Virus record (IMG/VR): IMGVR_UViG_3300023170_002300
Span: 1-27,349 of that record
DNA: 27,349 nucleotides
Reading direction: 5' to 3' (one strand)
Source: a virus
Shown here: piece after piece, positions 1,053 through 27,349 of the stretch
Layout of the letters: every line of letters starts with the position of its first letter
Position numbering within the stretch: the stretch's first letter is position 1
Translations under genes and position numbers: made by a program
The notes under the pieces: generated by a model
The model's database searches: none
Seen by the model: only the letters and a program-made list of their open reading frames with translations
What the model was told of the DNA's origin: nothing

Positions 1053-1078
1053 AAAAAAATTAAAGCATAATTTAACTC

Positions 1079-1086: not shown

Positions 1087-1091
1087 CTGGC

Positions 1092-1964
1092 ATGCCGGCA
1101 GTAAGAGGTGCAAGACCCATAAGAAATAGTGAAGTATTAAATTTTCATAATAATTTAAACATCACACAGACTCCCAGTTTGGATGAATATTCCAATATCT
1201 GGAGAGAATGGCTTAATTTTAGCGAACACAATTCTTTAAAAGGACTTGATAATTTTGAATTTGCAGACTATACTCAGGGCACTAGCCAAACATTTGATAA
1301 TTTTATTTTAAAACATTGCCATAACAGACAAATATTAGTTTTAGAAGGTGACTTCCAGTATCATGCCTGTTTGGGCAAACATGTAGATTTTAAATATGTT
1401 ACATACCCTTTTCACCTAGAAGCAGATATTCAAGGACGTGATTTACATGCATTATTAATAAGTGCACCATTTAGTGACTATGGCAGTATGTTACCTGATT
1501 TTGAATACTTAATGAATGTTTGCGAAGAATATGAAATACCTGTATGTTTGGATTTGGCTTATTGGGGTATATCAAAACATATACATATAGATTTAGAACA
1601 ATTTCCGGCTATAAAAGAAGTCACATGCAGTTTAAGTAAACCCTTTTTTACATTGGAAAATCACAGAGTAGGTGTAAGATTTACAAGAGAATATGTTGAT
1701 GATGGTGTCAGTATGCTAAATGAAGTAAAAATGGCAAACAATTACAGCATGGCACTGGGTATAGAATATATGAAAAACTTTTCACCAGACTATAATTGGC
1801 AAAAATATAGATTTCAGTATGAGGAAATATGCCATGAACAGGATTTAGTTTGGACTGATTCTGTGATATTTGGATTGGGTGACGAAGAACGACATAAAGA
1901 TTTTAATAGAGGAATAACAAACAATTACAGAGTCTGTATAAGTGAATGGCTAGGCGATTGTTAA
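1092..1964 (+). CDS. Fold-type-I PLP-dependent aminotransferase-like protein (short form)
   Basis: The 290-aa product resembles the class I/II (aspartate aminotransferase) superfamily. It has the strand-loop VCLDLAYWG with Asp154 and Tyr157, which in this fold contact the PLP ring nitrogen and hydroxyl. It then has CSLSKPFF with Lys183 as the expected Schiff-base lysine, followed by ENHRVGVRF, like the usual R.G element. Family members are usually about 400 aa; this protein lacks much of the N-terminal domain and probably part of the C-terminal one. It could therefore be a minimal aminotransferase, a decarboxylase/lyase variant or a PLP-binding relic. It starts the rightward metabolic run, directly at a late-promoter octamer with no ribosome binding site, and is followed by the amidinotransferase. 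That order suggests it supplies or processes the amine acceptor, which is an inference. Confidence 0.72.
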   Translation: MPAVRGARPIRNSEVLNFHNNLNITQTPSLDEYSNIWREWLNFSEHNSLKGLDNFEFADYTQGTSQTFDNFILKHCHNRQILVLEGDFQYHACLGKHVDFKYVTYPFHLEADIQGRDLHALLISAPFSDYGSMLPDFEYLMNVCEEYEIPVCLDLAYWGISKHIHIDLEQFPAIKEVTCSLSKPFFTLENHRVGVRFTREYVDDGVSMLNEVKMANNYSMALGIEYMKNFSPDYNWQKYRFQYEEICHEQDLVWTDSVIFGLGDEERHKDFNRGITNNYRVCISEWLGDC

Positions 1965-1971
1965 ATAAATA
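1964..1971 (+). promoter_or_regulatory. Late promoter-like octamer AATAAATA before the amidinotransferase
   Basis: AATAAATA overlaps the last base of the preceding TAA stop. The predicted start near 1977 would give a short leader containing the AAAGGAG ribosome binding site (about 1977-1982) before the ATG at 1992. The match is good but the leading base is variable. Confidence 0.5.
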
Positions 1972-1991
1972 CAATAAAGGAGACACACAAA

Positions 1992-3053
1992 ATGATAGTA
2001 AACTCACACAATGATTGGGATCCATTAGAAGAAATAATAGTAGGACATGCCCATCATAGTCGTATAGCAACTGATATTTCAGCAAGAAGTTTCAGTTACG
2101 CACCTTACCCTGAAGAACAGATCAAACCATTAGAAGGAGTTTATCCTCAATGGGTTATAGATGAAGCAAACGAAGATGCAGACGGTTTAGCAGACACACT
2201 TACAAAAATGGGCGTAAAAGTTCACAGACCTAAAATTGTGGATTGGGAAAATCTAAATTATGATATTGGTAAAGGCTGGAACACAAAAGGCTGGTACAGT
2301 TGGTGTCCACGTGATTTAATACTACCTTTGGGTGATATGCTAATTGAAACACCTACTCCTGTAAGAGCAAGATATTTTGAAACAAAACATTTATATGAAG
2401 ACATAATGTACGAAGCATTTGAAGATGGTGCATTATGGTTACAAGCACCTAAACCAAACTTACATGATGACATGTATCAGTTTGACAATTTAGACATTGC
2501 CACCCTATTAGATCATGAGATATGTTTTGATGCTCCTAATATTGTGAGAGTAGGAAAAGATTTATTATATCAAGTTAGTAATAGTGGTAACATGAAAGGC
2601 TTCAAATGGTTAAAACGATTATTAGAGCCAATGGGTTACAAAATGCATTATAGCGAACTTTATAGTTTTGCACATTTTGACAGCACTATTGTTCCACTAA
2701 GACCTGGATTAGTGTTATTAAACAGCTCAAGAGTAACACCAGACAACTGTCCTGAAATGTTTAAAAAATGGGATAAAATTTGGTTTGATGATTGTGTAGT
2801 ACAGGGAAGTAAATTAGCAGACGAAGGCTACATTGCTCCATGTTCTCCATACATTGGCATGAATATACTGAGTGTGGATGAGAATACTATTATCTGTGAT
2901 TCAGCACAAGAGCCACTGATGCGTGAATTAGACAAGTGGGGCATTAACAGTGTACCTGTACAGTTTAGGCACTCTATGACGCTCTCTGGCGGTATACACT
3001 GTGCTACTTTAGACTTAAGACGTAGAGGAACTTTAGAGAGTTATTGTGATTAG
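1992..3053 (+). CDS. Glycine amidinotransferase-like enzyme
   Basis: The 353-aa protein aligns along its length with arginine:glycine amidinotransferase (AGAT/GATM) and related StrB1-type amidinotransferases, which move an amidino group from arginine to an amine. The N-terminus has the family start (DPLEEIIVGHA). The catalytic residues are all visible: Asp180 (EICFDAPNIVRVGKD), His228 and Asp230 (SFAHFDSTI) and the nucleophile Cys337 in GGIHCATLDLRRRGTLESY, which closely matches the C-terminal signature of animal GATM. Length fits a bacterial member of the family. A clear AAAGGAG ribosome binding site sets the start, and the end overlaps the next gene by 8 nt, so they are co-translated. The acceptor could be glycine or another amine, or a sugar-linked amine as in guanidino-sugar pathways; sequence alone does not decide. 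Confidence 0.92.
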   Translation: MIVNSHNDWDPLEEIIVGHAHHSRIATDISARSFSYAPYPEEQIKPLEGVYPQWVIDEANEDADGLADTLTKMGVKVHRPKIVDWENLNYDIGKGWNTKGWYSWCPRDLILPLGDMLIETPTPVRARYFETKHLYEDIMYEAFEDGALWLQAPKPNLHDDMYQFDNLDIATLLDHEICFDAPNIVRVGKDLLYQVSNSGNMKGFKWLKRLLEPMGYKMHYSELYSFAHFDSTIVPLRPGLVLLNSSRVTPDNCPEMFKKWDKIWFDDCVVQGSKLADEGYIAPCSPYIGMNILSVDENTIICDSAQEPLMRELDKWGINSVPVQFRHSMTLSGGIHCATLDLRRRGTLESYCD

Positions 3054-3534
3054 TTACGGACATATAGACATTGACGTATCGTTAGACATGTTGGATGCTA
3101 TAGAATATACTGAATATTTTCAGTGTTATCAACAATATGAAGCATTGGAAAAATATTACACTAAACATAACAGTAGTATATGGCAGATGTTTGAAGAGTC
3201 ACCTCAATGGGTACATGATTTAGCAAATAAAATCCCGCAGGGTTTTGATCATCATGTTGTTAGCACAATAAAAATACCTCCAGGACAGACTATTCCTCAT
3301 CATGTTGATAAACATTTTAAATTAAAACAAGAACATGGAGAGGGAGAGGGATATCGTTATTTGATATTTTTAGATGATTGGAAACGAGGACACTATTATG
3401 AAATACATGATAAACCTTACACACAATGGCGTAAAGGTGACTATGTGAAATTTGGTAGTGATGATTGGCATATTGCAGGTAATATGGGAGATGAGCCTTT
3501 TTATTCTGCACAAGTTACGGTGTTGTATAAGTGA
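3046..3534 (+). CDS. 2-oxoglutarate/Fe(II) oxygenase-like protein, first tandem copy
   Basis: The 162-aa protein starts with GTG inside the last codons of the amidinotransferase gene. It has the double-stranded beta-helix pattern of aspartyl/asparaginyl hydroxylase-like dioxygenases: an HXD motif (His86, Asp88 in PHHVDKH) and a distal His142 in DDWHIAGN after KGDYVKF. Together these form the expected Fe(II)-binding facial triad. The arginine that normally binds 2-oxoglutarate near the C-terminus is not visible (PFYSAQVTV is found instead of an R-containing strand). The cosubstrate may therefore be bound differently, or the reaction may not use 2-oxoglutarate. It is clearly paralogous to the next gene, and the stop overlaps the next GTG by 4 nt (GTGA). 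Confidence 0.75.
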   Translation: MISYGHIDIDVSLDMLDAIEYTEYFQCYQQYEALEKYYTKHNSSIWQMFEESPQWVHDLANKIPQGFDHHVVSTIKIPPGQTIPHHVDKHFKLKQEHGEGEGYRYLIFLDDWKRGHYYEIHDKPYTQWRKGDYVKFGSDDWHIAGNMGDEPFYSAQVTVLYK

Positions 3535-4070
3535 TTAAAGGGCACGTAGATTTATCCTGGTTAGATGAAAGAGAATTATATCTAACTAAATTTGTAGAAG
3601 AAACTAATAGTATTTGGTCAGGTGGTTATTGGAAAGACAACAATTTGCCAGTACCAGATTATCCCCAAGATGGACCTATTGTTTTACAAACATATGATGA
3701 CTATGCTCCAGCATGGGCTCATAAAATAAAAGAACAATTTAGTTTTATTGAACATGCTATGGTTACAGTGAATTGTATTAAACCAGGCAGATTTATAGGA
3801 CCACACACAGATAAGTTTTTTAGGTTATTTGATTTAGCCAAATTAAATAAATGGGATATAGAAAATAAAACTCCGGTAAGAGTGAATGTTTTCCTGCAGG
3901 ATAAAATTATGGGACATTTTTTAGAAATAGAGAAACAATCATTTCCAGAATATATCAAAGGTGATTACGCCTATATTTTAAAAGATCAAGTACATTGTGT
4001 TAGTAATATAAGCAACACAAACAGATATACTTTGCAAGTTACAGGATTTGCAAAAACAGAGGAATTATAA
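3531..4070 (+). CDS. 2-oxoglutarate/Fe(II) oxygenase-like protein, second tandem copy
   Basis: The 179-aa protein uses a GTG start overlapping the previous stop. It shares the whole layout of the previous gene: GHVDLSW near the start, PAWAHKIKE against PQWVHDLAN, an HXD iron motif (His92, Asp94 in GPHTDKFFRL), KGDYAYIL, distal His155 (DQVHCVSN) and a final beta strand. Unlike its partner it keeps an arginine at the expected 2-oxoglutarate position (Arg165 in NTNRYTLQV). It is therefore the better candidate for a true hydroxylase, acting on a small molecule or on a protein side chain. The 3' end overlaps the epimerase start by one base (TAATG). Function beyond the fold class is unknown. Confidence 0.78.
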   Translation: MIKGHVDLSWLDERELYLTKFVEETNSIWSGGYWKDNNLPVPDYPQDGPIVLQTYDDYAPAWAHKIKEQFSFIEHAMVTVNCIKPGRFIGPHTDKFFRLFDLAKLNKWDIENKTPVRVNVFLQDKIMGHFLEIEKQSFPEYIKGDYAYILKDQVHCVSNISNTNRYTLQVTGFAKTEEL

Positions 4071-5026
4071 TGAAAATATTTTTAACAGGTGCAGATGGAT
4101 TTATAGGCCAACACATGGTGGAAAGGCTCAAAGATAAACATGAGTTAGAATTTTTGAAAGAAGATTTAAGAGATCATGAAGCAGTAAGTAAACAGGTTTT
4201 GGATTTTGATCCTGAAATTATTGTACATTTGGCGGCAAGAACAGAAGTACAAGACAGTTTTTATGAGCAAATACCTTTTAGTGAAATTAACTATGTGGGT
4301 ACAGTAAACTTGATTGAAACTGCGGCACAACTTAAAAATTTTAAAAACTTTGTGTTTGCCAGTACTATGGAAGTATATGGTTGGCAACCTATAAGCGATA
4401 TTATTAAAGATGGTAAAGAGGAAGGTGTTATTGCATTTAATGAAACAACTCCTCCAAACCCAAATGCTCCTTACGCCGTTGCAAAATATGGCTGTGAAAA
4501 ATATTTAGAATATGCCCATAGAAGTTATGGATTACCTTTTACTGCTATAAGACAAACAAATGCATATGGTAGAAAAGACAACAATTTTTTTGTAACAGAA
4601 CAAATCATTTATCAAATGCTCACCAACGAAAAAGAAATTAATCTGGGATATGGTGAACCTTATCGTAACTTCATCTATATTGACGATTTACTAGATGCTT
4701 GGGAAACAGTTATTGTAAATCCAGATAAATGTGCTGGAGAAATATTTTGTATAGGTCCTGATAATGCAATTAAAATTAAAGACTATGTAAAAGTAATAGC
4801 AAATAAAATAGGCTGGGATGGTAAAGTTAATTGGGACACAAAACCTCCAAGACCAGGCGAAATATATTTGTTGAATAGTACAAATCACAAAATTACTAGT
4901 AGACTAGGCTGGTTCCCTAAAGTGGAACTAAGTGATGGTTTAGACAGAACAATAGCAATATGGAAAAATATTGTTGACAATAACTTACCCTTTAATCTAG
5001 ATAGAAAGTTCAGTAAAGGTAAGTAG
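4070..5026 (+). CDS. NAD-dependent epimerase/dehydratase (extended SDR)
   Basis: The 318-aa protein is a full-length extended short-chain dehydrogenase of the nucleotide-sugar epimerase/dehydratase type. It has the GXXGXXG dinucleotide-binding loop (Gly7, Gly10, Gly13 in TGADGFIGQH), an LAARTEV segment after beta-4, the active-site region FASTMEVYG and the catalytic YXXXK (Tyr135, Lys139 in PYAVAKYG). The downstream RQTNAYGRKD and RNFIYIDDLLDAW segments are typical of sugar-nucleotide members. It likely acts on a UDP-, GDP- or dTDP-sugar, but the exact reaction (4-epimerase, 4,6-dehydratase or other) is not resolved. The start overlaps the previous stop by one base and it lies 5 nt before the B12-radical SAM gene. 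This ties the amidinotransferase and oxygenases to possible sugar chemistry. Confidence 0.9.
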   Translation: MKIFLTGADGFIGQHMVERLKDKHELEFLKEDLRDHEAVSKQVLDFDPEIIVHLAARTEVQDSFYEQIPFSEINYVGTVNLIETAAQLKNFKNFVFASTMEVYGWQPISDIIKDGKEEGVIAFNETTPPNPNAPYAVAKYGCEKYLEYAHRSYGLPFTAIRQTNAYGRKDNNFFVTEQIIYQMLTNEKEINLGYGEPYRNFIYIDDLLDAWETVIVNPDKCAGEIFCIGPDNAIKIKDYVKVIANKIGWDGKVNWDTKPPRPGEIYLLNSTNHKITSRLGWFPKVELSDGLDRTIAIWKNIVDNNLPFNLDRKFSKGK

Positions 5027-5031
5027 TATGT

Positions 5032-6888
5032 ATGTACTCAGTATCTTTAATACAGCCTAATTTTCAAACAGGCCCGCATCATTTAAATAGTTACTATTTG
5101 CCTTATAGTGTAGGTTCGTTATGGTCTTACATAATACAGAACAGTGATATAAAACAAAACTTTTCTATCAGTAATATCATCTTTAGAAGAGACACAATAG
5201 ATGAATTAATAAAATCACACAAAGATACTGATATTGTTTTAATTAGTTTATATATTTGGAATAGAAATTATTGTTTTAAACTCGCACAAAGATTAAAAGA
5301 GTCATATCCTAACATAAAAATTATAATGGGAGGTCCAGAACTTCCTTGGAGACAGGAAAACTTTTTTGAACAATATCCATTTGTTGATAGCATAGTAATA
5401 GGCGAGGGCGAAAAAGCAGTAGAACATCTTTTGTTACAATTTTTACAAAATAAAAAATTAGATAAAATAAATCAATTTGAAAGAATGAAAGAACTTGATT
5501 TACCGAGTCCATACCTAAATGGAATGTTTGATAATTTATTAAAAAAACATCCTGATATAGAATGGGTACCAACCATAGAAACAGATAGAGGTTGTCCATA
5601 TAGTTGTACATTTTGTGATTGGGGTAGTGCAACGGCAAGTAAAATGTATAAGTTTTATTTTGAAAGAATAAATGCTGAACTAGATTGGATTTCAAAAAAT
5701 AAATTGCCATATCTTTCACTAACATCAAGTAACTTTGGTATTTTTAAAGAACGTGATTTAAAGATTGCAGAAAAGATAGTAGAACAAAATAAATTAACTG
5801 GTTGTCCAAATGGACTTAGTGTAAGTTATGCCAAAAATAGCAATGACACGGTTGTGGAAATAGTTAAGTTATTTACAGACGCACAAATACAAACTGGCGT
5901 AACATTAAGTTTACAAACAACCAGCGATCATGTTTTAGAAAATATTAAACGTAAAAACATGAAAATAAATTCCATAACGGAAGTTACAGAATTAGCAAAT
6001 AAAAATCATTTACCTGTATTAACAGAATTAATTTTAGGTATGCCAGGTGAAACAAGTGAATCCTGGCGGAATACCTTAGAGCAGGTAATTCAAAATAATA
6101 TTTTAAATTTAGATGTTTATTTTTTACAGTTACTAATAAACTCCCCAATGTATGTAAAACAAATTGCGGATTATAATTTAAAAACGTTTGAAGCATTTGA
6201 TTTCTTTTATGGTGTACATACAGGAGATTTCTTAGATGATAAACAAAATGGTATTGCTGAATCTATAGAAGTAATTCAATCCACAAATACATTTGACCGA
6301 GAACAATTAATAGACGAAAGTATATTTACTTGGTTTGTTTTAGGATTTCATATGTATGGAATATCTAATATTATTTCTAAATACTTGTTTGAAGAATTTG
6401 ATTATACTTATATGGAATTTTATAATTCTCTGTATAAAGTTTTATTAAGAGAAGACAAATATTTTCCAAAATGGGTTGATCAAATTAAACAGGGTTTGTA
6501 CAGATGGCAAGACAAAGGCTATATGGATGCTGATATAGGCGGACTCAGTATCCAAGGTTGGCAGTATTTCCATTCCCTTATGCCTATTATTCAAAACAAC
6601 AACTTGGTTGATCATTATGTTGATTTTGTTGCAGAGCAATTTACCAGCAAAATTGACGAAAAAACATTAAATGACTATAAAAACCTATCGAAAAATCAGA
6701 TAAAACAGTTTAATAGATATATAACTACTGAAAAAGTACTAGAATTAGAGTCTGGTAATTTTGGTGAAACTGTTTTAGTAGAGGATAGGTTTAATCATTA
6801 TCCTAAAAACTTAACAGAACATTTGGAATTTTTATTCTTTGGCAGGCGTAGAAGTTGGCATATGAATAAAATAGTTGACAAAAGATAA
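5032..6888 (+). CDS. B12-binding domain radical SAM enzyme
   Basis: The 618-aa protein has two recognisable parts. Residues about 1-135 resemble a cobalamin-binding Rossmann domain (LYIWNRNY, IKIIMGGPE, VDSIVIGEGE). A radical SAM barrel follows with CX3CX2C at Cys188/Cys192/Cys195 (DRGCPYSCTFCDWG) and a later LILGMPGETSESW segment. The roughly 200-residue C-terminal extension is unassigned and contains an aromatic-rich stretch. Family relatives carry out methylations, ring contractions or rearrangements on unactivated carbons during natural-product, lipid and cofactor synthesis. The gene ends the metabolic run; 32 non-coding bases follow. No ribosome binding site is obvious, and the start is an ATG 5 nt after the previous stop. 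The substrate is unknown. Confidence 0.88.
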   Translation: MYSVSLIQPNFQTGPHHLNSYYLPYSVGSLWSYIIQNSDIKQNFSISNIIFRRDTIDELIKSHKDTDIVLISLYIWNRNYCFKLAQRLKESYPNIKIIMGGPELPWRQENFFEQYPFVDSIVIGEGEKAVEHLLLQFLQNKKLDKINQFERMKELDLPSPYLNGMFDNLLKKHPDIEWVPTIETDRGCPYSCTFCDWGSATASKMYKFYFERINAELDWISKNKLPYLSLTSSNFGIFKERDLKIAEKIVEQNKLTGCPNGLSVSYAKNSNDTVVEIVKLFTDAQIQTGVTLSLQTTSDHVLENIKRKNMKINSITEVTELANKNHLPVLTELILGMPGETSESWRNTLEQVIQNNILNLDVYFLQLLINSPMYVKQIADYNLKTFEAFDFFYGVHTGDFLDDKQNGIAESIEVIQSTNTFDREQLIDESIFTWFVLGFHMYGISNIISKYLFEEFDYTYMEFYNSLYKVLLREDKYFPKWVDQIKQGLYRWQDKGYMDADIGGLSIQGWQYFHSLMPIIQNNNLVDHYVDFVAEQFTSKIDEKTLNDYKNLSKNQIKQFNRYITTEKVLELESGNFGETVLVEDRFNHYPKNLTEHLEFLFFGRRRSWHMNKIVDKR

Positions 6889-17505: not shown

Positions 17506-18372
17506 ATGATCCAAGACCTTTACGTAGACGGATGTAGTTACGCATCTGGATGGGGCAAGGGTTTAGAAAAAACTTTATTTAGGCCAAAATGGACTAATTC
17601 CTCTTCCTGGGTTGATACATTTACAGAATTTACAAATACAGAAAATTTGTGGAATCATTCTTTAGTAGCGAAGCCATTAGATATGCAGATTATAGATATT
17701 AAAAATTTCTGTGATCAATATTTAAAAAAATATAAAACATATGATAGATTATTTGTTTGCGTAGAATTTTCAAGTACAACTTATAAATCTTTTCAAACTG
17801 TAAAAGTTAGAGACGGCGAATTTAAAAATGAAATAGTTTACCCTGTTATATTAGCAAAAGCACAAGATATAGAAACAGAAAATTATCTTATCCATTATGT
17901 AAGAAAAACAAATGATTATTTAGATGTACAAGAACCAATGTTTGTAAAAATGGATGAAGATACAATAGATCCTGAAGATAGAAAACGTACTGAACAAAGT
18001 GCAAGAACTTGGTTTTTTGGTAGGCATAATGCTTTTGTAGAACATACAGATTATACTTTCAAATGTGTGGCAAAAATTAAAAAGTTTTTATATTTAAGAA
18101 ATATACCTTTTGTAATGTATTCTGCAGGAGTTTCAGATAATCACCCACATAAAGAATTTTTAGATTTTGCTCTAAGACCTTTAAGTAAAGATAATAGACT
18201 TGTGCCTTTAACTGCATTTACAGGGCTTCAACTATCTGCAAAATATTCTTTAGAACAATATGCAAATCATCCTGATGAAAATGGACATTTTGCTATTGGA
18301 AAACATCTTTATGACTGGGTGACTAAACACGATCTTACAAAAAAACCAAACTCCAGCATAATTACAATATAA
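17506..18372 (+). CDS. SGNH/GDSL-hydrolase-like cargo protein
   Basis: The 288-aa protein opens with VDGCSYASGWG, which resembles SGNH block I with Ser11 as potential nucleophile. Near the end it has NHPDENGHFAIGKHLYDWV (His255, His261), like the block V region around the catalytic His of SGNH hydrolases. The Asp three residues before the His in the canonical DXXH is not present (Tyr252), so catalysis is uncertain. Members act as esterases or acetylhydrolases on lipids and polysaccharides. The gene starts one base after the preceding stop with no ribosome binding site, and its own stop lies in the gp17 late promoter. It is thus inserted neatly between packaging genes, more AT-rich than they are, and looks like cargo rather than core. 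A structural or host-surface role is possible. Confidence 0.6.
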   Translation: MIQDLYVDGCSYASGWGKGLEKTLFRPKWTNSSSWVDTFTEFTNTENLWNHSLVAKPLDMQIIDIKNFCDQYLKKYKTYDRLFVCVEFSSTTYKSFQTVKVRDGEFKNEIVYPVILAKAQDIETENYLIHYVRKTNDYLDVQEPMFVKMDEDTIDPEDRKRTEQSARTWFFGRHNAFVEHTDYTFKCVAKIKKFLYLRNIPFVMYSAGVSDNHPHKEFLDFALRPLSKDNRLVPLTAFTGLQLSAKYSLEQYANHPDENGHFAIGKHLYDWVTKHDLTKKPNSSIITI

Positions 18373-19962: not shown

Positions 19963-21192
19963 ATGATTCCTGCAAATATTTTAACTAACAGTTCTTTTAT
20001 AAATTATAAAGATACTAAAATAATTGTTCCTAATGGATTTACTGAAGACATCACCGATACAATAATTAATGAAGGACCCACAACATTTAATAAATGTTTT
20101 GGATTTCAAAGTTATTCTGATGACATTACATTAGAATTAAGAGCCCCCAGTTTTTTTGTGCAAGATGAAAATAAATTAGGTGTGTACCATATAGTTTTTA
20201 ATGAGACAATTTTTAATTTAAATTTCATTCCAGATAATTTTATTTTTAATATTCCTAAACGTGTAATAGAAGATCATAAAGAAGGCAAATGTATTATTGT
20301 TTTTGATATAAGTTCTGATAATGTTATACCTTATGGTAAAATAAAGAATACAATAGAGAACACAATTAAATTTTATAATTTAATAAAAAATAATTGTGTT
20401 TTATTTACATGTTTTGAAAACGAAACAAATTTTTTAGACATAAAAAATATTGGTATTAACGTAGTATTGCCTACATTTAAGATTCCTAACATAAAAGATG
20501 CAATTAATTATTCATTGGCAAACAAAAATAGAAAACATAAAATAAGATGTTTAAATGGTAAACACAGAACACATAGATTTAAATTTTTTGAAAAAATCTT
20601 TAATAATGATCATTTAAAAAATAATGAAATATCATATTGTTTGTTGCCAGATTTTAATAATAGCGATCAATTATATGAAATTAAAAAAATATGTGTTGAT
20701 AACAAAATTTTAGATATTTTGCCATTAAACGGAAAAGACGGGGGTGTTAGAAATTCCTCAGACATTAGAAAAAATTGGCATAAATCTTGTTTAGCAGATT
20801 TTTATGTGGAATTTTCAGTTGAATCTGTTTGTGATGAAAAAAATATATTTCTCACAGAAAAAACAGCAAGACCTATATTAAGTATGGTTCCATTTGTTTT
20901 ATTATCAAGTCCTTTTTCTTTAAAAAATCTACAAAATAAAGGGTTTAAAACATTTAATAAATGGTGGAACGAAAGTTATGATAATGAAATAGATGTTAAT
21001 AAAAGAATAGATAAGGTATTTGATGTATTTGAATACATTAATTCTTTGTCGTTTTCAGACTTAGATCAATTAATTATTGAAGCACATGATACTTTAGTTC
21101 ATAATATAATGTTTTATAATAGGTACCAATCAACTTACAAATGTTTTGATAGTTGTAAAAAATATTTTGAAAAATTAAATTCTGATAAATAG
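19963..21192 (+). CDS. Glycosyltransferase-like cargo protein, paralogue A
   Basis: The 409-aa protein starts one base after the gp17 stop without a ribosome binding site. Two landmarks are shared with the gene at 25357: a central IRCLNGKHRTHRFKFF block (about residue 191) and a C-terminal IFLTEKTARPILSMVPFVLL block (about 297) followed by GFKTFNKWWNESYDNEID. The S/F-x-TEK-x-x-P-I pattern resembles the nucleotide-sugar site of GT-B transferases such as GT10 fucosyltransferases and exostosins. Glycosyl transfer is therefore suggested, not shown. It is much more AT-rich than gp17: one sampled 60-nt line at 20221 has 12 G/C against 23 in a line of gp17. Its stop lies within the next gene's promoter. 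It is probably acquired cargo acting on surface glycans, virion proteins or DNA. Confidence 0.55.
   Translation: MIPANILTNSSFINYKDTKIIVPNGFTEDITDTIINEGPTTFNKCFGFQSYSDDITLELRAPSFFVQDENKLGVYHIVFNETIFNLNFIPDNFIFNIPKRVIEDHKEGKCIIVFDISSDNVIPYGKIKNTIENTIKFYNLIKNNCVLFTCFENETNFLDIKNIGINVVLPTFKIPNIKDAINYSLANKNRKHKIRCLNGKHRTHRFKFFEKIFNNDHLKNNEISYCLLPDFNNSDQLYEIKKICVDNKILDILPLNGKDGGVRNSSDIRKNWHKSCLADFYVEFSVESVCDEKNIFLTEKTARPILSMVPFVLLSSPFSLKNLQNKGFKTFNKWWNESYDNEIDVNKRIDKVFDVFEYINSLSFSDLDQLIIEAHDTLVHNIMFYNRYQSTYKCFDSCKKYFEKLNSDK
21184..21191 (+). promoter_or_regulatory. Late promoter octamer GATAAATA overlapping upstream stop, leaderless geometry
   Basis: The upstream gene ends GAT AAA TAG, so its last two sense codons and most of its stop form the octamer. 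GTTAT and the ATG at 21197 follow, again with 5-nt spacing and no ribosome binding site. Confidence 0.75.
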
Positions 21193-21196
21193 TTAT

Positions 21197-22453
21197 ATGG
21201 CTATAAACATTAATACAGTATCTGAGAAACTTTTTAACATTTTAAAAGGCTTTGGCTACGAAGTAAAAAGTTTTAACAAAGAGGGTAAAATTGTAATCAA
21301 CCCACAAGAAGCAACACGTTTTGCTGTATCAGAACCCAATTTACTAGCAAGATTAGATGTTAATGATAAAACAATTATGTTAGCAACTAGCAGTGAACTA
21401 AGTGAATCTCCAGTAAGAGGTATGATTAAAGACTTAGCACAGGATTACTTGTTAAATTTTGATTACAGAATATTTGATAAAAAAATTAAACCTAAAGGCG
21501 AAAATTTGGACATAGCCAAGAATGCGGAGAAAGATATGGCAGATGTAATGGAGGCAAGTTTAGGCAGAATGACTGGTAGTACAAAAACCAGTTATCAACC
21601 ATTAGACAATGTTAGAGTAGTAGTAAGACATAAAAAACCTGTAGATGAAGAAGTACGTGGTTCCAGAAGTAGAAATATCCACAGCATCTTTATTCAAAGG
21701 GGAGATGAAAGATTTAAAATGGCTGAAAATAATTTATCAGCCGCCAGAGCAATGGCAAGACACCTATACAATGGTGGTGAAATGTATGATAACATTGGTG
21801 AAGCAATAACTACAATGGCACAGGATTACAGACAACTCCGTGAGTTTGTAAGATATGTTAAAGGTGCAAAACTTGTAAATGAAACAAACGAAGAATATGT
21901 TTCACTAGCATTGGAAAACATTGGTGAGATTAAAAACACATTTAAAAGATTAAGTGGAGTCAAAACATACGCAAATGCTATAGAAAGCATTGAGGATTAC
22001 GGCTCAGTCGAAATGTTAGAAGATGATTTAGATTTAGAAAGTAAATTTACTGAAACACATTTTGACGACAAAGTTGCTAATGTAATGAATAATTTAAAAT
22101 CATTGGCAAATAGAAGAAAAAGTTTTGAAAGCAAAATTGTTAAAGCAATTGAATCAGAAACATTTGATGGTGTAAAAGATAGATTACAGGAATCTGATCT
22201 AGTAGATTTTGCAACACCACATGCAAAACTTGGATACCAAGTTAGTCAGTTAGGCTATAGTGCTAAAGACGATGTATTAGCAAACTATTTACAGAGTATT
22301 AGCAGTAAACTAAATGACGGCGGAGAACTAAGTCAATTTGAATATGGTGCTATCAAAAGTTGTTTATTAAGTGCAAATCAAAACGTACAAAAAACTGCTC
22401 CAGTAGATGTAGCAGAAACATACGAAGCATTTTTGGACCAATTTACACAGTAA
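21197..22453 (+). CDS. Conserved marine T4-like phage protein, unknown function, 418 aa
   Basis: The N-terminal domain (residues about 1-105) contains FGYEVKSFNKEGKIVINPQEATRFAV. It is followed by a linker and a block IHSIFIQRGDERFKMAENNLSAARAMARHLYNGGEMYDNIGEAI that I recognise as recurring in marine T4-like phages, without known function. The C-terminal half is largely helical. It starts directly at a late-promoter geometry, so it is expected to be made late and may be a virion or head-core component. It is followed by about 150 bp of non-coding regulatory DNA. No catalytic motif is seen. Confidence 0.65.
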   Translation: MAININTVSEKLFNILKGFGYEVKSFNKEGKIVINPQEATRFAVSEPNLLARLDVNDKTIMLATSSELSESPVRGMIKDLAQDYLLNFDYRIFDKKIKPKGENLDIAKNAEKDMADVMEASLGRMTGSTKTSYQPLDNVRVVVRHKKPVDEEVRGSRSRNIHSIFIQRGDERFKMAENNLSAARAMARHLYNGGEMYDNIGEAITTMAQDYRQLREFVRYVKGAKLVNETNEEYVSLALENIGEIKNTFKRLSGVKTYANAIESIEDYGSVEMLEDDLDLESKFTETHFDDKVANVMNNLKSLANRRKSFESKIVKAIESETFDGVKDRLQESDLVDFATPHAKLGYQVSQLGYSAKDDVLANYLQSISSKLNDGGELSQFEYGAIKSCLLSANQNVQKTAPVDVAETYEAFLDQFTQ

Positions 22454-22467
22454 AAACACACATAACA

Positions 22468-22475
22468 GATAAATA
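22468..22475 (+). promoter_or_regulatory. Late promoter octamer GATAAATA upstream of gp32
   Basis: Lies 15 nt after the preceding stop. Its predicted start (about 22481) coincides with the beginning of a stem-loop. It would give gp32 late expression in addition to the sigma70-type promoter downstream. Confidence 0.6.
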
Positions 22476-22481
22476 AATTTG

Positions 22482-22499
22482 TTAGCCAGAAATGGCTAA
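22482..22499 (+). promoter_or_regulatory. GNRA-type stem-loop at predicted 5' end of late gp32 transcript
   Basis: TTAGCCA (22482-22488), tetraloop GAAA and TGGCTAA (22493-22499) form a perfect 7-bp stem. No T-run follows, so a terminator is unlikely. It could protect the 5' end or take part in autoregulation of gp32, as leader structures do in T4. Confidence 0.55.
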
Positions 22500-22516
22500 T
22501 AGTTGTAAAAAAGTAC

Positions 22517-22545
22517 TTGACATTTTTACATCATGGCAATATAAT
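22517..22545 (+). promoter_or_regulatory. Consensus sigma70 promoter upstream of gp32
   Basis: TTGACA at 22517-22522 and TATAAT at 22540-22545 are separated by exactly 17 nt. This is a perfect host-type vegetative promoter. The predicted transcript starts near 22552, about 50 nt before the gp32 ATG. It would express gp32, uvsX and probably uvsY early, before the late system acts. Confidence 0.9.
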
Positions 22546-22602
22546 TAAGGCACAGTAATATGAATGTATTACGAACATGGCATAAACAAAGGAGAAAACA
22601 TT

Positions 22603-23616
22603 ATGGCCTCATTAGCAGAAATTAGAGCAAAACTACAATCAATGGATACCAAATCCAGTAGTTCCCCAGCTCAAAGCGATAAAGCAATTTACCCTTTTTG
22701 GAACATAGACGAAGGTACTAGTACAGTACTAAGATTCCTTCCTGACAGTGATCCAAACAACACGTTCTTTTGGGTAGAACGACAAATGATAAGACTAACA
22801 TTTCCAGGAGTTGTAGGCGGTGACGCAAAACCAGTTACTGTACAAGTTCCTTGTGTGGAAATGTTTAATGAAACTTGTCCTATTTTAACTGAGGTAAGAC
22901 CTTGGTTTAAAGATCCTTCTTTAGAAGACATGGGAAGAAAGTATTGGAAGAAAAGAAGTTATATTTTCCAAGGCTTTGTAAATGAAAACCCATTAAACGA
23001 AGAAGCACCTGAGAATCCAATTAGAAGATTTGTAATTGGTCCTCAAATTTTTAACATTATTAAATCAGCATTAATGGATCCTGATATGGAAAACCTTCCA
23101 ACAGATTACGTTAATGGTACTGATTTTAGATTAACTAAAACAACAAAAGGTCAATACGCAGACTATTCCACAAGTAAGTGGGCTAGAAAAGAAAGTGCTC
23201 TTACTGAAGAACAACTTGCGGCAATTGACTCAAATGGACTATTTAATTTAAATGACTTCCTCCCTGCTAAACCAACTGCAGAAGGTATTCAAGCAATAGC
23301 AGAAATGTTCCAGGCAAGTGTAGATGGTGAATTATATGACCCTGCAAGGTGGGGTACGTTTTACAAGCCCTATGGACTTGATACAGGAACAAGCACACAA
23401 ACCACAGTGGCACAGGCACAACCTACTCCAGCAGTACAACAAACTGCAACAGAGAGTGTGGCTCCTGTAACTGCTCCTGCACAAGCAGAAGCAACTGTGA
23501 CAGAACCTGTTGCTGAAACAACTCCTTCTCCTGCACCTGCAACAGCAGAAGCAGATACTGGTAAAAAATCAGCAGATGACATTCTGAATATGATCAGAAA
23601 TAGACAAACGTCTTAA
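22603..23616 (+). CDS. 32: Single-stranded DNA-binding protein gp32
   Basis: The start at 22603 is set by a GGAG site (22591-22594); an in-frame ATG at 22564 lies upstream of that site. The 337-aa protein follows the gp32 plan: N-terminal helical cooperative-binding segment (SLAEIRAKLQSM), an OB-fold core (YPFWNIDEGTSTVLRFLPD, YIFQGFVNENPL, RRFVIGPQIFNII, RLTKTTKGQYADYSTSKW) and an alanine/proline-rich linker (about 255-315). It ends KKSADDILNMIRNRQ, typical of marine T4-like gp32. The zinc-ligand set of T4 gp32 (His and three Cys) is reduced to Cys84 and Cys92, so zinc binding appears lost. It coats single-stranded DNA in replication and recombination, working with UvsX and UvsY downstream. 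Confidence 0.93.
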   Translation: MASLAEIRAKLQSMDTKSSSSPAQSDKAIYPFWNIDEGTSTVLRFLPDSDPNNTFFWVERQMIRLTFPGVVGGDAKPVTVQVPCVEMFNETCPILTEVRPWFKDPSLEDMGRKYWKKRSYIFQGFVNENPLNEEAPENPIRRFVIGPQIFNIIKSALMDPDMENLPTDYVNGTDFRLTKTTKGQYADYSTSKWARKESALTEEQLAAIDSNGLFNLNDFLPAKPTAEGIQAIAEMFQASVDGELYDPARWGTFYKPYGLDTGTSTQTTVAQAQPTPAVQQTATESVAPVTAPAQAEATVTEPVAETTPSPAPATAEADTGKKSADDILNMIRNRQTS

Positions 23617-23625
23617 GGAGGAAAC

Positions 23626-24732
23626 ATGCAAAAACCTTTTGACTTAACAAAGTTCAGAACTGGCCTGACGAAGAGTATTTCAGGTATTAGTGCTGGTTTC
23701 TTTGATCCACAGGATTGGATTAGTACAGGAAACTATACACTAAACTATCTTATTAGTGGTGACTTTAACAAAGGTGTTCCACTTGGTAAGGTATCAGTAT
23801 TTGCTGGTGAGTCCGGTTCTGGTAAAAGTTTTATTTGTTCTGGTAACCTAGTTAAATCCGCACAGGATATGGGTTGTCAAGTTGTGTTGTTTGACTCAGA
23901 AAACGCACTTGATGAACAATGGCTACAAGCATTGAATGTAGACACATCACCAGAAAAACTTTTAAGAATTAGTGTTTCAATGATTGATGATGTTGCTAAA
24001 GCAGTATCAGAGTTTATGAAAGACTATAAAGCAAATTATGGCGATCTGCCATATGATGAGCAACCTAAATTAGTTTTTGTAATAGACAGTTTGGGTATGC
24101 TTCTAACTCCGACTGATGTAGATCAGTTTCAGAAAGGAGATATGAAAGGTGATATGGGTAGAAAACCTAAGGCATTAACAGCCTTGGTTAGAAACACAGT
24201 TAACCAGATTGCTCCTTTTCCAATAGCCCTTATAGCCACAAACCACACTTATGCATCGCAAGATATGTTTGATCCAGATGATAAGATCAGTGGTGGCCAA
24301 GGGTTTATATATGCAAGTAGTATTGTTGTTGCTATGAAGAAACTCAAATTAAAAGAGGATGAAGATGGTAACAAAACGTCTACTGTACAAGGTATCAGAG
24401 CGGCCTGTAAAGTGATGAAGTCACGATACAGCAAACCGTTTGAAGGTGTTCAAATCAAAATCCCATACGAGACAGGCATGGATCCATACAGTGGCCTCTT
24501 GGAGATGTTTGAAAAGAAAGAGATTGTGATTAAAACAGGAAACAAACTGGAATACACCTCACCTGTAACTGGAGAAGTTATCAAAGAGTTCAGAAAAGGC
24601 TGGACTGGAGATAAACTTCAGGTAATTATTGATGAATGGGGTCAAAACCCTTTAGCAAAACAAGATATTGTTGAAGATGCTGACCCAGATTCATTTGAAC
24701 CAGAAGCAGAGGAGTATACAGATGAGTCCTGA
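23626..24732 (+). CDS. uvsX: UvsX RecA-like recombinase
   Basis: The 368-aa protein is the phage strand-exchange ATPase. Walker A is GESGSGKS (residues 61-68), followed by VVLFDSENALDEQWL with the catalytic Glu region. Walker B is KLVFVIDSLGML, then a flexible DNA-binding loop QKGDMKGDMGRKPKALTALVR and NHTYASQDMFDPDDKISGGQG. The acidic C-terminus resembles those of RecA and UvsX. Length is close to T4 UvsX (391 aa). A very strong ribosome binding site (AAGGAGG, 23615-23621) overlaps the gp32 stop region, so both are read from the gp32 transcript. The 3' end overlaps the next gene by 11 nt. Confidence 0.96.
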   Translation: MQKPFDLTKFRTGLTKSISGISAGFFDPQDWISTGNYTLNYLISGDFNKGVPLGKVSVFAGESGSGKSFICSGNLVKSAQDMGCQVVLFDSENALDEQWLQALNVDTSPEKLLRISVSMIDDVAKAVSEFMKDYKANYGDLPYDEQPKLVFVIDSLGMLLTPTDVDQFQKGDMKGDMGRKPKALTALVRNTVNQIAPFPIALIATNHTYASQDMFDPDDKISGGQGFIYASSIVVAMKKLKLKEDEDGNKTSTVQGIRAACKVMKSRYSKPFEGVQIKIPYETGMDPYSGLLEMFEKKEIVIKTGNKLEYTSPVTGEVIKEFRKGWTGDKLQVIIDEWGQNPLAKQDIVEDADPDSFEPEAEEYTDES

Positions 24733-24955
24733 AGTAGCACTTCTATATGATACATGGGATAGTATAAAAACATACATACCCAAAAAAGAACGACTACATG
24801 TCGCTGAAGAACTCGTTAGAACCTTCGACGATAACGTGGACATTTCAGAAGCAGAAGATCACATTAATACATTTGATACTGCTATGAAGGCGGCATTGGT
24901 CAGCCACTTTGACATTGGATTCGAAGACGATGAAGATGATGAGGATTGGGGTTAA
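24722..24955 (+). CDS. Small acidic protein between uvsX and uvsY, unknown function
   Basis: The start is chosen at the ATG at 24722, which overlaps the end of uvsX by 11 nt; the longer in-frame ORF begins deep inside uvsX. The 77-aa product reads EVALLYDTWDSIKTYIPKKERLHVAEELVRTF and ends in a highly acidic tail (DDEDDEDWG). Proteins of this pattern sit next to the recombination genes of other marine T4-like phages. The acidic tail suggests a DNA-mimicking or gp32/UvsX-interacting role, but that is speculation. Confidence 0.75.
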   Translation: MSPEVALLYDTWDSIKTYIPKKERLHVAEELVRTFDDNVDISEAEDHINTFDTAMKAALVSHFDIGFEDDEDDEDWG

Positions 24956-24958
24956 AAC

Positions 24959-25420
24959 ATGAGTACTTGGTATAATAAAGTTGTAGGCGATTTAGGCGAC
25001 ATAATACCAGCCATCGAGTATTATGAGAAACAACTTGATGAAGCCAGGTACGAATGCAGGATAAAGGGTAGCCTGGAGAAATCCAGTGCCGCCCTCCCAG
25101 GCTTAACAGAATATCGCTTTAATCAACTGCAAGAGATTGAAGCAATACTAGAACACTTAAATATAGAACTTCGTAAAGAACGTTCCAAAACATTCCGCAA
25201 ATACTTAGAAGCATACAATAGACAACTTTCAAGTAGAGATGCTGAAAAATATGTTGATGGTGAACAAAGTGTTATAGATTTAACTCACCTTGTTAACCAA
25301 TTTAGCCTTTTGCGTAATAAATATCTAGGCATAATGAAGGGCTTAGACACAAAGCAATGGCAGATAGGACACATAACAAGACTGAGAACAGCAGGAATGG
25401 AAGATATAGTTATAGACTAA
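24959..25420 (+). CDS. uvsY: UvsY recombination mediator
   Basis: The 153-aa protein matches T4 UvsY (137 aa), the hexameric factor that loads UvsX onto gp32-coated single-stranded DNA. Diagnostic blocks are LRKERSKTFRKYLEAYNRQLSSRDAEKYVDGE (shown in part: YLEAYNRQLSSRDAEKY), VIDLTHLVNQFSLLRNKYLGIMKGL and the C-terminal QWQIGHITRLRTAGMEDIVID. The N-terminal 50 residues are helical and somewhat longer than in T4. It starts 3 nt after the 77-aa gene. Its last 64 nt are overlapped by the annotated start of the downstream cargo gene, which suggests that the cargo was joined at the 3' end of uvsY. Confidence 0.92.
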   Translation: MSTWYNKVVGDLGDIIPAIEYYEKQLDEARYECRIKGSLEKSSAALPGLTEYRFNQLQEIEAILEHLNIELRKERSKTFRKYLEAYNRQLSSRDAEKYVDGEQSVIDLTHLVNQFSLLRNKYLGIMKGLDTKQWQIGHITRLRTAGMEDIVID

Positions 25421-26427
25421 ATCAAATATCCTTTTTAAAAGATAAAACAATTTATCCTGCTGATATCGAACGATTAACGAATTTTTCTCACTTATTAGAA
25501 GATGATGTAAAATATCTTTACATCAATATGAGTGATTATACAGATCTTCTACATCAAAAAAATCATATTATAGAAACAATAGTTTCTCCTTTTTTAAAAG
25601 ACAATGAAATAGATATAGTCATTTTAGATTGTTCATATGATCCTTTTGACGAATTTGAATCAACAATAGAAACCTGGGATTGGCCTTGTGGATATAAGGT
25701 GTTAGTAAATGATTTTTCATATATTTTCAAAGAATCTAACTCTATAATCTACCATAATCCATTTATATGGCAATATAAGGACTTAAGATATAAAAAATAT
25801 GATAATGAAAAAATATATCCTATTAGTTGCTTAAATGGTGTACCTAGAAAACCCAGAATAGATTTATTCAATCTTCTCAGACATAGTAATAATTTTAATA
25901 AAATATTATTTTCTATGGGTAATTTTAAATTTAGTAAATATATAACAGATATAAATTCTGACACGGATAGAAATACTTACAAAAGATATTTTGCAGAGTT
26001 TGGTGATAAAGGATTTAGTAATTTTACTACTATTGGAGATAATTATGATAGAGGTTCAGACCATAGCATAAAACATATTGCTTTTAGAGAAACTGTTTTA
26101 AATGTTGTTACAGAAACCGCACCTGACGGTGCTAGTATATTTACAGAAAAAACCTGGAAACCCATATATGCAAGACAGTTTTTTATTCAATTTAATAGAC
26201 CGTTTGCCGTAGAACATTTAAGAAAAATAGGGATAGATGTATTTGATGATGTTATAGATCATTCATATGATCAAGTAATAGACTATCAATCTAGATTAAC
26301 AATGATTAGTCAAGAAATATTAAGGTTGTTAGATGATACTGGTAATCTTTTCGATTACCACATTAAGTATAAAGATCGACTGGAAAATAACTTTAATCTT
26401 TTAACAAGTGAGGATTTTTTACAATGA
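25357..26427 (+). CDS. Glycosyltransferase-like cargo protein, paralogue B
   Basis: The 356-aa frame opens with an ATG inside uvsY. The first about 20 residues, up to the uvsY stop, look like translated uvsY antiphase sequence, so real initiation may be at a non-standard codon near 25420 or by coupling. From there the protein shares two blocks with the gene at 19963: ISCLNGVPRKPRIDLFNLL (about residue 154) and ASIFTEKTWKPIYARQFFIQ (about 261) followed by GIDVFDDVIDHSYDQVID. The TEK-x-x-x-P-I block resembles GT-B glycosyltransferase nucleotide-sugar sites (inference). DNA is very AT-rich compared with uvsX/uvsY. The stop overlaps the next ATG (ATGA). Substrate unknown. Confidence 0.55.
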   Translation: MADRTHNKTENSRNGRYSYRLNQISFLKDKTIYPADIERLTNFSHLLEDDVKYLYINMSDYTDLLHQKNHIIETIVSPFLKDNEIDIVILDCSYDPFDEFESTIETWDWPCGYKVLVNDFSYIFKESNSIIYHNPFIWQYKDLRYKKYDNEKIYPISCLNGVPRKPRIDLFNLLRHSNNFNKILFSMGNFKFSKYITDINSDTDRNTYKRYFAEFGDKGFSNFTTIGDNYDRGSDHSIKHIAFRETVLNVVTETAPDGASIFTEKTWKPIYARQFFIQFNRPFAVEHLRKIGIDVFDDVIDHSYDQVIDYQSRLTMISQEILRLLDDTGNLFDYHIKYKDRLENNFNLLTSEDFLQ

Positions 26428-26633
26428 AATTGGATTTACACGGTGTAAGACATCATGAGGTTGACATTTTAGTAGAAAATTTTATACTAATGAATCAGGA
26501 GGAAATTCCTCTTACAATAATATGTGGAAACAGTCAGCGAATGATTGACTTAGTGTATGAAGTAATCAACAGAATAGATTGTGAAACTGTGGTTATGGAT
26601 CAATATGGAGTAATAGTAATAAGAAATGTTTAA
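26424..26633 (+). CDS. Mini Smr-domain-like protein
   Basis: The 69-aa protein starts with KLDLHGVRHHEVDILVENFI, carrying the DLHG motif typical of Smr domains (the C-terminal domain of MutS2 and free-standing Smr proteins). It continues with PLTIICGNSQRMIDLVYEVI, which matches the Smr core where TGxG is usual, here reading CGNS. Smr domains bind or cleave structured nucleic acids and, in some proteins, ribosome-associated RNA. It is slightly shorter than a usual Smr domain (about 80 aa). It overlaps the upstream cargo stop by 4 nt (ATGA). A role in recombination intermediates would fit the nearby uvsX/uvsY, but this is inferred. Confidence 0.6.
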   Translation: MKLDLHGVRHHEVDILVENFILMNQEEIPLTIICGNSQRMIDLVYEVINRIDCETVVMDQYGVIVIRNV

Positions 26634-26733
26634 TGTAATATCAGATTTTTATTCAAAAATTCGTTTAAAATATATTCTATGGAGAGCTGACAAAATTTTA
26701 AAAAAAGTACGGAGAAATAGTGATAGGTTTTGA
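26626..26733 (+). CDS. Possible 35-aa basic peptide
   Basis: An ATG overlapping the end of the mini-Smr gene opens a 35-codon frame rich in Lys and Arg (for example ADKILKKVRRNSDRF). It ends 14 nt inside the next gene. It fills the 86-nt gap and its start and stop overlap both neighbours, as in coupled genes, but no ribosome binding site or family supports it. The C-terminal part covers the GGAG site of the next gene, so it may only be chance. Confidence 0.25.
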   Translation: MFNVISDFYSKIRLKYILWRADKILKKVRRNSDRF

Positions 26734-27349
26734 AAATATTCCTTCAGATATAAATGAAGCACCTATTGTAGATCCTATAGCATATGATCTATTGAATATC
26801 TATACCAATGATATGGGTAGTACATTGTCTCTGGGTATATCCAGTCTAGATTCACAATCTATCAGAAAAAATATAGAATTTTGTGTTAATACATATAGAC
26901 CTAAAACTATGTTGTTATCTAACACTGATGTATATAGAGATAGAGATGTAGGCACAAGTAATGGATTTGAAAAATTATATGAATATATGGGTAATTTGGA
27001 AGTAAATTTTATAATACAAACACTGGGTTATCAGGATAAAAAAATAAAAGATAATATTTGGCAAATTTCATATCCATATATGTTTTCATTGAAACATCAA
27101 GATATTTACACAAATAATGACAGACAATATGGTTTTAGTTATCTTAATAACTATCCTAAATATTTTAGAATTAAATTAGGACATGCGTTGTGGAAAAATA
27201 ATTTATTAGATAATATATATTACACTCAATCGTTTTGGGAAAGAAAAACTTTTAATTTAGAAAGTTATTTAGATATGCCAAAATTTAAAGAATTCTTAAA
27301 GTTGTTGCCTATACAAGAGCATTCAGAAAAAAATAAAAATATGACACAT
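26720..27349 (+). CDS. Glycosyltransferase-like cargo protein, paralogue C (3' end beyond window)
   Basis: A GTG start at 26720, preceded by a GGAG site at 26711-26714, opens a frame of 210 codons that runs off the window without a stop. The region about residues 120-165 reads WQISYPYMFSLKHQDIYTN followed by GFSYLNNYPKYFRIKLGHAL and WKNNLLDNIYY. This aligns with the CLNG...R block and preceding NPFIWQYKDLRY segment of paralogue B and with the CLNGKHRTHR block of paralogue A. The C-terminal TEK block expected for this family would lie outside the window. The DNA is very AT-rich like the other two. Membership is judged by eye on short blocks, so it is moderate. Confidence 0.55.
   Translation, partial: MIGFENIPSDINEAPIVDPIAYDLLNIYTNDMGSTLSLGISSLDSQSIRKNIEFCVNTYRPKTMLLSNTDVYRDRDVGTSNGFEKLYEYMGNLEVNFIIQTLGYQDKKIKDNIWQISYPYMFSLKHQDIYTNNDRQYGFSYLNNYPKYFRIKLGHALWKNNLLDNIYYTQSFWERKTFNLESYLDMPKFKEFLKLLPIQEHSEKNKNMTH

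Follow-up and report, generated by a model that had tools for sequence, protein, structure and literature searches.

Three dispersed genes in a T4-like phage DNA fragment of 27,349 nucleotides (IMG/VR record IMGVR_UViG_3300023170_002300, analysed over this whole length and here called the window) are true homologues by sequence comparison. They belong to a protein family that is undescribed, being unnamed in Pfam, NCBIfam and PHROGs, but widespread in phages, with 172 non-identical members found in viral contigs. Predicted structures of two of the three proteins (P1, P2 and P3, from genes 1, 2 and 3) support GT-B folds of the nucleotide-sugar type, and all three very probably attach sugars to some acceptor. 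A GT-B glycosyltransferase annotation, with a predicted donor site, is now possible for a large protein family of uncultured phages.

Three homologous genes scattered over the window

Gene 1 (19963..21192, plus strand; P1, 409 aa) lies directly after terL, between it and a structural gene, and gene 2 (25357..26427, plus strand; P2, 356 aa) starts 64 nt before uvsY ends, as an earlier note on this DNA had placed them (after gp17 and after uvsY). Both are annotated here as GT-B glycosyltransferase-family proteins. Gene 3 (26720..27349, plus strand) follows a 69-aa ORF and comprises the first 210 aa of P3, its ORF being open at the window end; the complete form, of 335 aa, was found on an IMG/VR contig (L012:3136-4143) that is 99.92% identical to the window across 3765 bp.

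Genes 1 and 2 match each other by BLASTP at E=1e-8 over 177 aa, a region covering both shared sequence blocks described below, and gene 2 matches the complete gene 3 at 7e-9 over 169 aa; the 210-aa window fragment of gene 3 alone gave no significant pairwise BLAST match. Using a leave-out profile, built without P1, P2, P3 and one close relative of gene 2, we obtained E-values of 3.5e-46 for gene 1, 3.3e-41 for gene 2, 4.5e-37 for the complete gene 3 and 3.9e-11 for its stop-to-stop window fragment. None of 300 shuffles and three reversals reached E 10 with this profile. The earlier note had named chance as the alternative to be tested, and these scores against shuffled and reversed controls rule out a chance motif.

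The first block, CLNG...R, had been described as common to all three genes. It is present in gene 1 (C196-R205, 20548..20577, plus strand), where it ends in the predicted donor-site Arg, a column conserved as R/K, and in gene 2 as SCLNG...R (S157-R167, 25825..25857, plus strand), while in gene 3 pairwise comparison and conservation identify a degenerate version, SYLNNYPKYFR (27137..27169, plus strand). The second block was reported from the first two genes, and there it is found: E287...T298-E-K-T301 in gene 1 (20821..20865, plus strand) and E253...T263-E-K-T266 in gene 2 (26113..26154, plus strand). That description was too narrow, since the complete gene 3 also has it (CTEKTFKP, with GLGFHVFDD..EYD). 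Both blocks of gene 2 are defined by BLASTP, profile-profile alignment and conservation.

The three genes are AT-rich, as previously remarked, with GC contents of 0.231, 0.272 and 0.256 for genes 1, 2 and 3, respectively, against 0.33-0.40 in flanking core genes. Across 111 contigs, the family lies a median of 4.5 GC points under its neighbours, and it is lower in 86%. Other accessory genes in the window (those at 17506 and 5032) are likewise AT-rich.

Predicted GT-B fold and GT10-like donor site

The AF2 model of gene 2 has a pLDDT of 84.6 and a pTM of 0.86, and that of gene 1 a pLDDT of 74 and a pTM of 0.79. Both models show two Rossmann-like domains with a C-terminal domain predicted to bind the donor. 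For gene 2, the top Foldseek rows are GT-B enzymes with few exceptions (best 3.5e-4, prob 1.00). Structural alignment with VIA-align gave Z 11.6 against T4 BGT (rmsd 5.1, 256 aligned), Z 11.3 against the H. pylori GT10 enzyme FucT (2nzx; rmsd 4.0, 241 aligned) and Z 10.4 against EXT1-EXT2 (rmsd 5.1, 246 aligned). The gene 1 model returned GT-B rows essentially throughout (Z 9.4-11.0). Over the two models, T4 AGT is also among the best fold matches, at Z 10.9. The earlier note had staked its proposal on the presence of a nucleotide-sugar fold, which the P1 and P2 models thus display in prediction.

We also ran the profile-profile search that had been suggested. The family aligns with GT10 over the E...TEK motif with an hhalign score of 40.6 (P 5e-5), compared with 13.6 for the reversed profile and at most 11.0 for 30 column shuffles. 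The scores for GT4 (14.1), CgeB (15.9) and GT90 (15.0) are far lower, with shuffle maxima of 11.4, 12.8 and 14.5, and none of these three groups shows clear profile-profile similarity to the family. This alignment backs the earlier guess about the TEK block and supports the reading of the shared blocks as a GT10-type donor site made of Arg, Glu and then Glu-Lys. The upstream Arg contacts the donor phosphate in H. pylori FucT; the Arg of the gene 1 block and R167 of gene 2 fall on this GT10 position in a full-length alignment made at a low threshold and in no other. A catalytic base was not located, and the N-terminal domain is too divergent to align with GT10.

The predicted donor residues are strongly conserved across the family (R/K 113/113, E 110/113, EK 110/113), and P1, P2 and P3 keep all of them. 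The three exceptions form one subfamily in which E and EK are lost together; in subfamily L007-L010 they are replaced by C and SS. Because scanning for the pattern TEKTWKPI biases such counts, 56 members without it served as a control; these retain R in 56, the two E in 50 each and K in 51.

The window proteins match no credible family in Pfam, NCBIfam or PHROGs and give no match to PF00852 (GT10), staying below its gathering cut-off; one of 113 family members matched PF00852, weakly (0.0036), with every member under the Pfam cut-off. Neither the window proteins nor the family members match PF03016 (GT47 exostosin) or the Pfam families of T4 glucosyltransferases, and profile searches of PDB sequences with the family gave nothing credible. 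The family thus resembles GT47 exostosins and the phage-encoded T4 alpha- and beta-glucosyltransferases in its predicted GT-B fold and differs from both by Pfam. With the GT10 alpha-1,3/4-fucosyltransferases (PF00852; H. pylori FucT, FUT9) it shares the predicted fold, the E...TEK motif and the profile match, and an upstream Arg aligns at low confidence; FUT10/11 of that group are protein O-fucosyltransferases. However, identity to GT10 is only ~10%, the TEKTxxPI continuation differs, a C-terminal helical block carries an invariant Asn, and the distribution is virus-centred. Our verdict is a new glycosyltransferase family, related to GT10 but not demonstrably within it.

Sugar genes near family members

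Some 15 kb from the family genes, the window carries a gene of the nucleotide-sugar 4,6-dehydratase/epimerase family (4070..5026, plus strand; PF16363 1.5e-41, PF01370 2.1e-40), whose best NCBIfam matches are LegB/dTDP-glucose 4,6-dehydratase at ~1e-38, under the equivalog cut-offs. It possibly supplies the donor. In a 342-kb relative, a family copy adjoins a GDP-mannose 4,6-dehydratase gene (TIGR01472 1.5e-91; a fragment cut by the locus end), a placement that is only suggestive of a GDP-fucose donor, and a formyltransferase gene likewise stands beside a copy. Two uncultured 340-kb phages (G408 and G409) have 8 and 10 matches to the family, with nucleotide-sugar genes adjoining.

Counting related contigs as independent, 24 of the 380 genes lying no more than two genes from a member encode a UDP-sugar dehydrogenase, DegT, epimerase or carbamoyltransferase, against 2 of the 311 at a distance of five or more (P 6e-5). 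By the same counting, SGNH-hydrolase-like genes, detected with an iterated profile, number 48/380 near members and 9/311 far from them (P 2e-6). This count replaces 35 SGNH loci from a single-linkage neighbour cluster, of which stricter clustering kept four. The window's own gene at 17506-18372 is SGNH-like by motif only, and the neighbour SGNH-like profile did not detect it. Family copies sit singly next to terL, uvsY, gp32, tail or neck genes.

Candidate acceptors

With moderate confidence, we propose that P1, P2 and P3 are soluble two-domain GT-B glycosyltransferases that act on the phage's own virion proteins, using a GT10-like site and a phage-modified NDP-deoxysugar. The C-terminal Rossmann domain would hold the nucleotide-sugar site (Arg, Glu, Glu-Lys), and the N-terminal domain, which diverges faster between paralogues (mean identity 13%, against 24% for the C-terminal domain), would pick the acceptor. 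In GT10, GDP-fucose is bound by the C-terminal domain and the acceptor is recognised by other motifs (PMC11949838). The donor may be GDP-linked, and each paralogue, presumably catalytic and most likely working in the infected cell, would handle a different sugar or a different acceptor.

That the acceptors are most likely virion proteins is our best guess by analogy, because the family genes are physically tied to no single virion gene. Mycobacteriophages encode glycosyltransferases that add sugars to their capsid and tail-tube proteins (PMC12363180). Like the present family, the glycosyltransferase sets of mycobacteriophages, pelagimyophages and moraphages comprise several phage-encoded enzymes per genome (PMC12363180, PMC7029224, PMC12619734); they are tied to virion or host surface modification and are assigned there to GT8 or to orthologous groups left unclassified. 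Modification of the host envelope fits the same gene context.

The same enzymes could instead alter host surface polysaccharide or lipopolysaccharide during infection and so block superinfection, a possible if somewhat doubtful alternative. For pelagimyophages, which are T4-like and marine, such a target of the glycosyltransferases has been put forward, and their LPS-type genes are likewise dispersed, in groups of two or three (PMC7029224). The nucleotide-sugar genes near family copies would suit a host-surface target. However, the commonest pelagimyophage family is GT8 rather than that of P1-P3 (PMC7029224), and the copies stand singly at structural and replication genes, not in one surface-sugar operon. 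A virion target would bear on adsorption, hiding and persistence of marine jumbo phages, and a host-surface target on competition between phages. Glycosylation of phage DNA bases, as by the T4 alpha- and beta-glucosyltransferases, seems unlikely, even though both T4 enzymes are among the best fold matches, the replication genes gp32, uvsX and uvsY adjoin copies, and work cited in PMC12619734 reportedly describes DNA-hypermodifying glycosyltransferases of phages. The profile similarity is to GT10, a family not known to act on DNA. The T4 dCMP hydroxymethylase belongs to the thymidylate-synthase family, and PF00303 has no match in G408 or G409, genomes of uncertified completeness, against three in the T4 positive control; the lack of a T4-type hydroxymethylase gene in either 340-kb relative counts against DNA glucosylation. 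A Tet_JBP search, lacking a working positive control, gave no match anywhere.

We consider it quite improbable that P1-P3 act on host proteins or small molecules, whether as effectors of infection or to tailor a phage-made metabolite: radical SAM enzymes, tryptophan halogenases and 2OG oxygenases do occur among the neighbours, yet radical SAM genes are about equally common far from and near members (10 vs 14 of 135) and no biosynthetic core gene was found. Still more remote is the idea that the proteins are non-catalytic sugar binders retaining a GT-B fold. The subfamily with C and SS at the donor positions would suit it, but every donor residue is intact in the window proteins and in almost all other members.

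Distribution and history of the family

P1, P2 and P3 lie in separate tree branches and are united in 0% of bootstrap trees, which excludes a recent triplication within the genome. Gene 1 is absent at the same junction in the close relative L095, and gene 2 has a syntenic ortholog in L131 (47%). The separate branches and the absence of gene 1 in a close relative indicate that the three copies are not a recent duplication. The earlier suggestion of repeated gain or duplication holds up as separate lineages, not as recent duplication.

As many as ten diverged copies scattered over a single genome suggest that such phages invest heavily in sugar chemistry. Tentatively, the family may be phage-specific, have split from the GT10 lineage and have grown by repeated gain to at most ten dispersed enzymes in uncultured jumbo T4-like phages, where it would build a virus-specific virion-protein glycan from phage-made GDP-deoxysugars supplied through dehydratase, aminotransferase and formyltransferase genes. 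If so, bacterial viruses would possess a counterpart to the glycosylation machinery known from giant viruses of algae and amoebae.

No member turned up in a profile search of eight cultured phage genomes, nor in HTVC008M in particular, and tblastn with six divergent members gave no match in 50,697 phage records. Among bacterial and archaeal assemblies, four of seven pattern matches are real members, all in metagenome-assembled genomes, on contigs that may be viral or cellular.

Three homologous genes

Open reading frames are present at 19963–21192 (gene 1), at 25357–26427 (gene 2) and from 26720 to the window end (gene 3), where an earlier note had placed three dispersed, AT-rich, glycosyltransferase-like paralogues. 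The sequence blocks it had seen in genes 1 and 2 (CLNG...R and TEKT-x-x-P-I) reflect homology: BLASTP aligned the two proteins at 1e-8 with both blocks inside the aligned region. The 210-residue piece of gene 3 by itself gave no significant match, because the window stops 5' of its second block. The IMG/VR contig L012, which shares 3765 bp with the window at 99.92% identity, completes the gene; the 335-residue protein bears CTEKTFKP and GLGFHVFDD..EYD, and matches gene 2 at 7e-9 over 169 residues. A profile excluding the three window proteins and one close relative detected genes 1, 2 and complete gene 3 with E-values of 3.5e-46, 3.3e-41 and 4.5e-37, establishing three-way homology, while none of 300 shuffled and 3 reversed copies scored below E 10. 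The AT-richness is also real, with a GC content of 0.23–0.27 in genes 1–3 vs. 0.33–0.40 in flanking core genes, and extends family-wide (a median of 4.5 GC points under neighbors in 111 contigs).

Predicted fold and donor site

Using a 113-sequence alignment, AlphaFold2 models were generated for gene 2 (pLDDT 84.6, pTM 0.86) and gene 1 (pLDDT 74.2, pTM 0.79), and both match GT-B enzymes, the fold anticipated earlier. In a Foldseek search of the PDB with the gene 2 model, most matches were GT-B glycosyltransferases, led by 2jjm (3.5e-4, probability 1.00). With VIA-align, where rows up to Z 1 apart were counted as ties, its top matches were T4 BGT (Z 11.6, rmsd 5.1, 256 aligned), the H. pylori GT10 fucosyltransferase (Z 11.3, rmsd 4.0, 241 aligned) and EXT1-EXT2 (Z 10.4). 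For gene 1, GT-B enzymes, T4 AGT among them, filled nearly all structural rows. The structural lists also hold a few unrelated receptor-fusion entries of similar score.

The TEK block had been likened to the nucleotide-sugar site of GT10 and exostosin enzymes. In profile-profile comparisons with bacterial proteins, the family scored 40.6 against GT10 (P 5e-5) vs. 14–16 against CgeB-like, GT4 and GT90 proteins; reversed or shuffled family profiles reached at most 13.6 against GT10. What aligns is the GT10 donor-domain motif E...TEK; the conserved CLNG-block arginine coincides with an arginine of GT10 in a permissive alignment only. Among 113 members the Arg column is R/K in 113, and E and EK are each kept in 110; conservation is the same in 56 members that lack the searched pattern. 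The profile match and motif conservation therefore support the GT10 part of the proposed likeness, exostosin having been compared by fold only. The family is thus GT10-related, yet it lies under the Pfam GT10 threshold and is not classed as GT10. Taken together, genes 1–3 are very probably glycosyltransferases.

The three exceptions, which lack both E and EK, form a single subfamily (L007:6051-7400, L008:6951-8327, L010:7059-8333) in which MCAFP and HSST replace the donor Glu and Glu-Lys; these proteins may use another donor or be inactive.

Distribution and evolution of the family

Viral-contig searches and an iterated profile yielded at least 172 non-identical members, unnamed in all general libraries scanned (Pfam, NCBIfam, PHROGs). 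In BFVD, about 20 uncharacterized proteins from uncultured Caudovirales phages and one Mimivirus LCMiAC02 protein strongly match the gene 2 model. Six divergent members had no match in 50,697 phage records, nor did profile searches of PA5oct, Phosso, Atu_ph07, HTVC008M, P-SSM2, S-SSM7, S-SM2 and T4 find the family. Two ~340-kb uncultured contigs hold 8 and 10 matches and a 243-kb uncultured contig 5. Cultured phages have terminases no more than 60% identical to that of the window, the PA5oct group of jumbo phages being nearest. The fold and donor motif are already known, but the libraries and literature examined record neither the family nor how large it is in uncultured phages, nor its layout as many dispersed copies. 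Eight copies on short contigs (C1, C25, C46, C53) of a Pacearchaeota metagenome-assembled genome, G007, are possibly mis-binned virus.

In a maximum-likelihood tree, genes 1–3 need three separate placements and are united in no bootstrap tree, although the bootstrap is not fully settled and gene 1 is a long branch. Genes 2 and 3 each group (support at least 100/99) with an ortholog at the same location in the relative L131, 47% identical, while uvsX and gp32 there are 86–87% identical. In another relative, L095, whose terL is 70% identical, the junction between terL and the next gene lacks gene 1. Local tandem duplicates are present in other contigs.

Genomic context and the acceptor

Neighbors were counted at 112 non-redundant loci. 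At no more than two positions from a family member, genes for UDP-sugar dehydrogenase, DegT, epimerase and carbamoyltransferase are enriched (24/380 vs. 2/311, P 6e-5), as are SGNH-hydrolase-like genes (48/380 vs. 9/311, P 2e-6). The window itself encodes a nucleotide-sugar 4,6-dehydratase/epimerase, assigned at family level (PF16363, 1.5e-41). In a 342-kb relative, a family copy located between gp32 and uvsX is preceded by a formyltransferase gene, uvsY is followed by a GDP-mannose 4,6-dehydratase gene (TIGR01472, 1.5e-91, for the part of the gene read), and a DegT aminotransferase lies close to two more copies; all three are candidate steps of a GDP-aminodeoxysugar pathway.

As acceptor we rank virion proteins first, at roughly even odds; mycobacteriophages provide a precedent for glycosylated virion proteins (PMC12363180), and the GT10 enzymes FUT10/11 act directly on proteins (PMC11949838). 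Modification of the host surface, as proposed for pelagimyophages (PMC7029224), appears a good deal less probable. Phage DNA is disfavored as acceptor because a thymidylate-synthase-family gene (the family including T4 hydroxymethylase) was found in neither 340-kb relative, their completeness being uncertified; a T4 control gave three matches. Mean identity between members is 13% in the N-terminal domain vs. 24% in the C-terminal domain, a gap to which alignment error adds; greater variation in the acceptor than in donor chemistry would be expected to produce such a difference. Uncultured moraphages are reported to have four core putative glycosyltransferase groups (PMC12619734).

Additional gene associations

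A second recurrent site lies in the structural module, where the family adjoins homologs of window genes 8307 and 9069 (dNMP kinase), with 11 adjacent cases each (L061, L146, L063, L154 and comparable loci). An AT-rich 288-residue ORF (17506–18372, GC 0.295), flanked by the gp16-like gene and terL, starts YVDGCSYASGWG, ends NHPDENGH and resembles SGNH-hydrolase blocks at motif level only; neither Pfam nor a neighbor-derived profile detected it. At L009:6339-8465 an N-terminal SGNH/GDSL hydrolase (DUF6071, 4e-13) is fused to a family domain of the subfamily with HSST instead of TEKT. Single open frames at L070:766-2715 and L142:3775-5718 join a PD-(D/E)XK nuclease domain to a C-terminal family domain, and chains of 687–907 residues carry two family domains (L074:2229-4289, L116:607-2667, L070:6672-9392). 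In the 342-kb uncultured phage, two tryptophan-halogenase-type genes adjoin a tandem family pair and an amidinotransferase-like gene (L289:6239-9796). Window 1–6888 holds an accessory cluster that resembles a set for tailoring sugars or small molecules: a minus-strand radical SAM protein, a B12-binding radical SAM protein (KedN5-like C-methyltransferase, 7e-67), an amidinotransferase-like protein and a sugar dehydratase.
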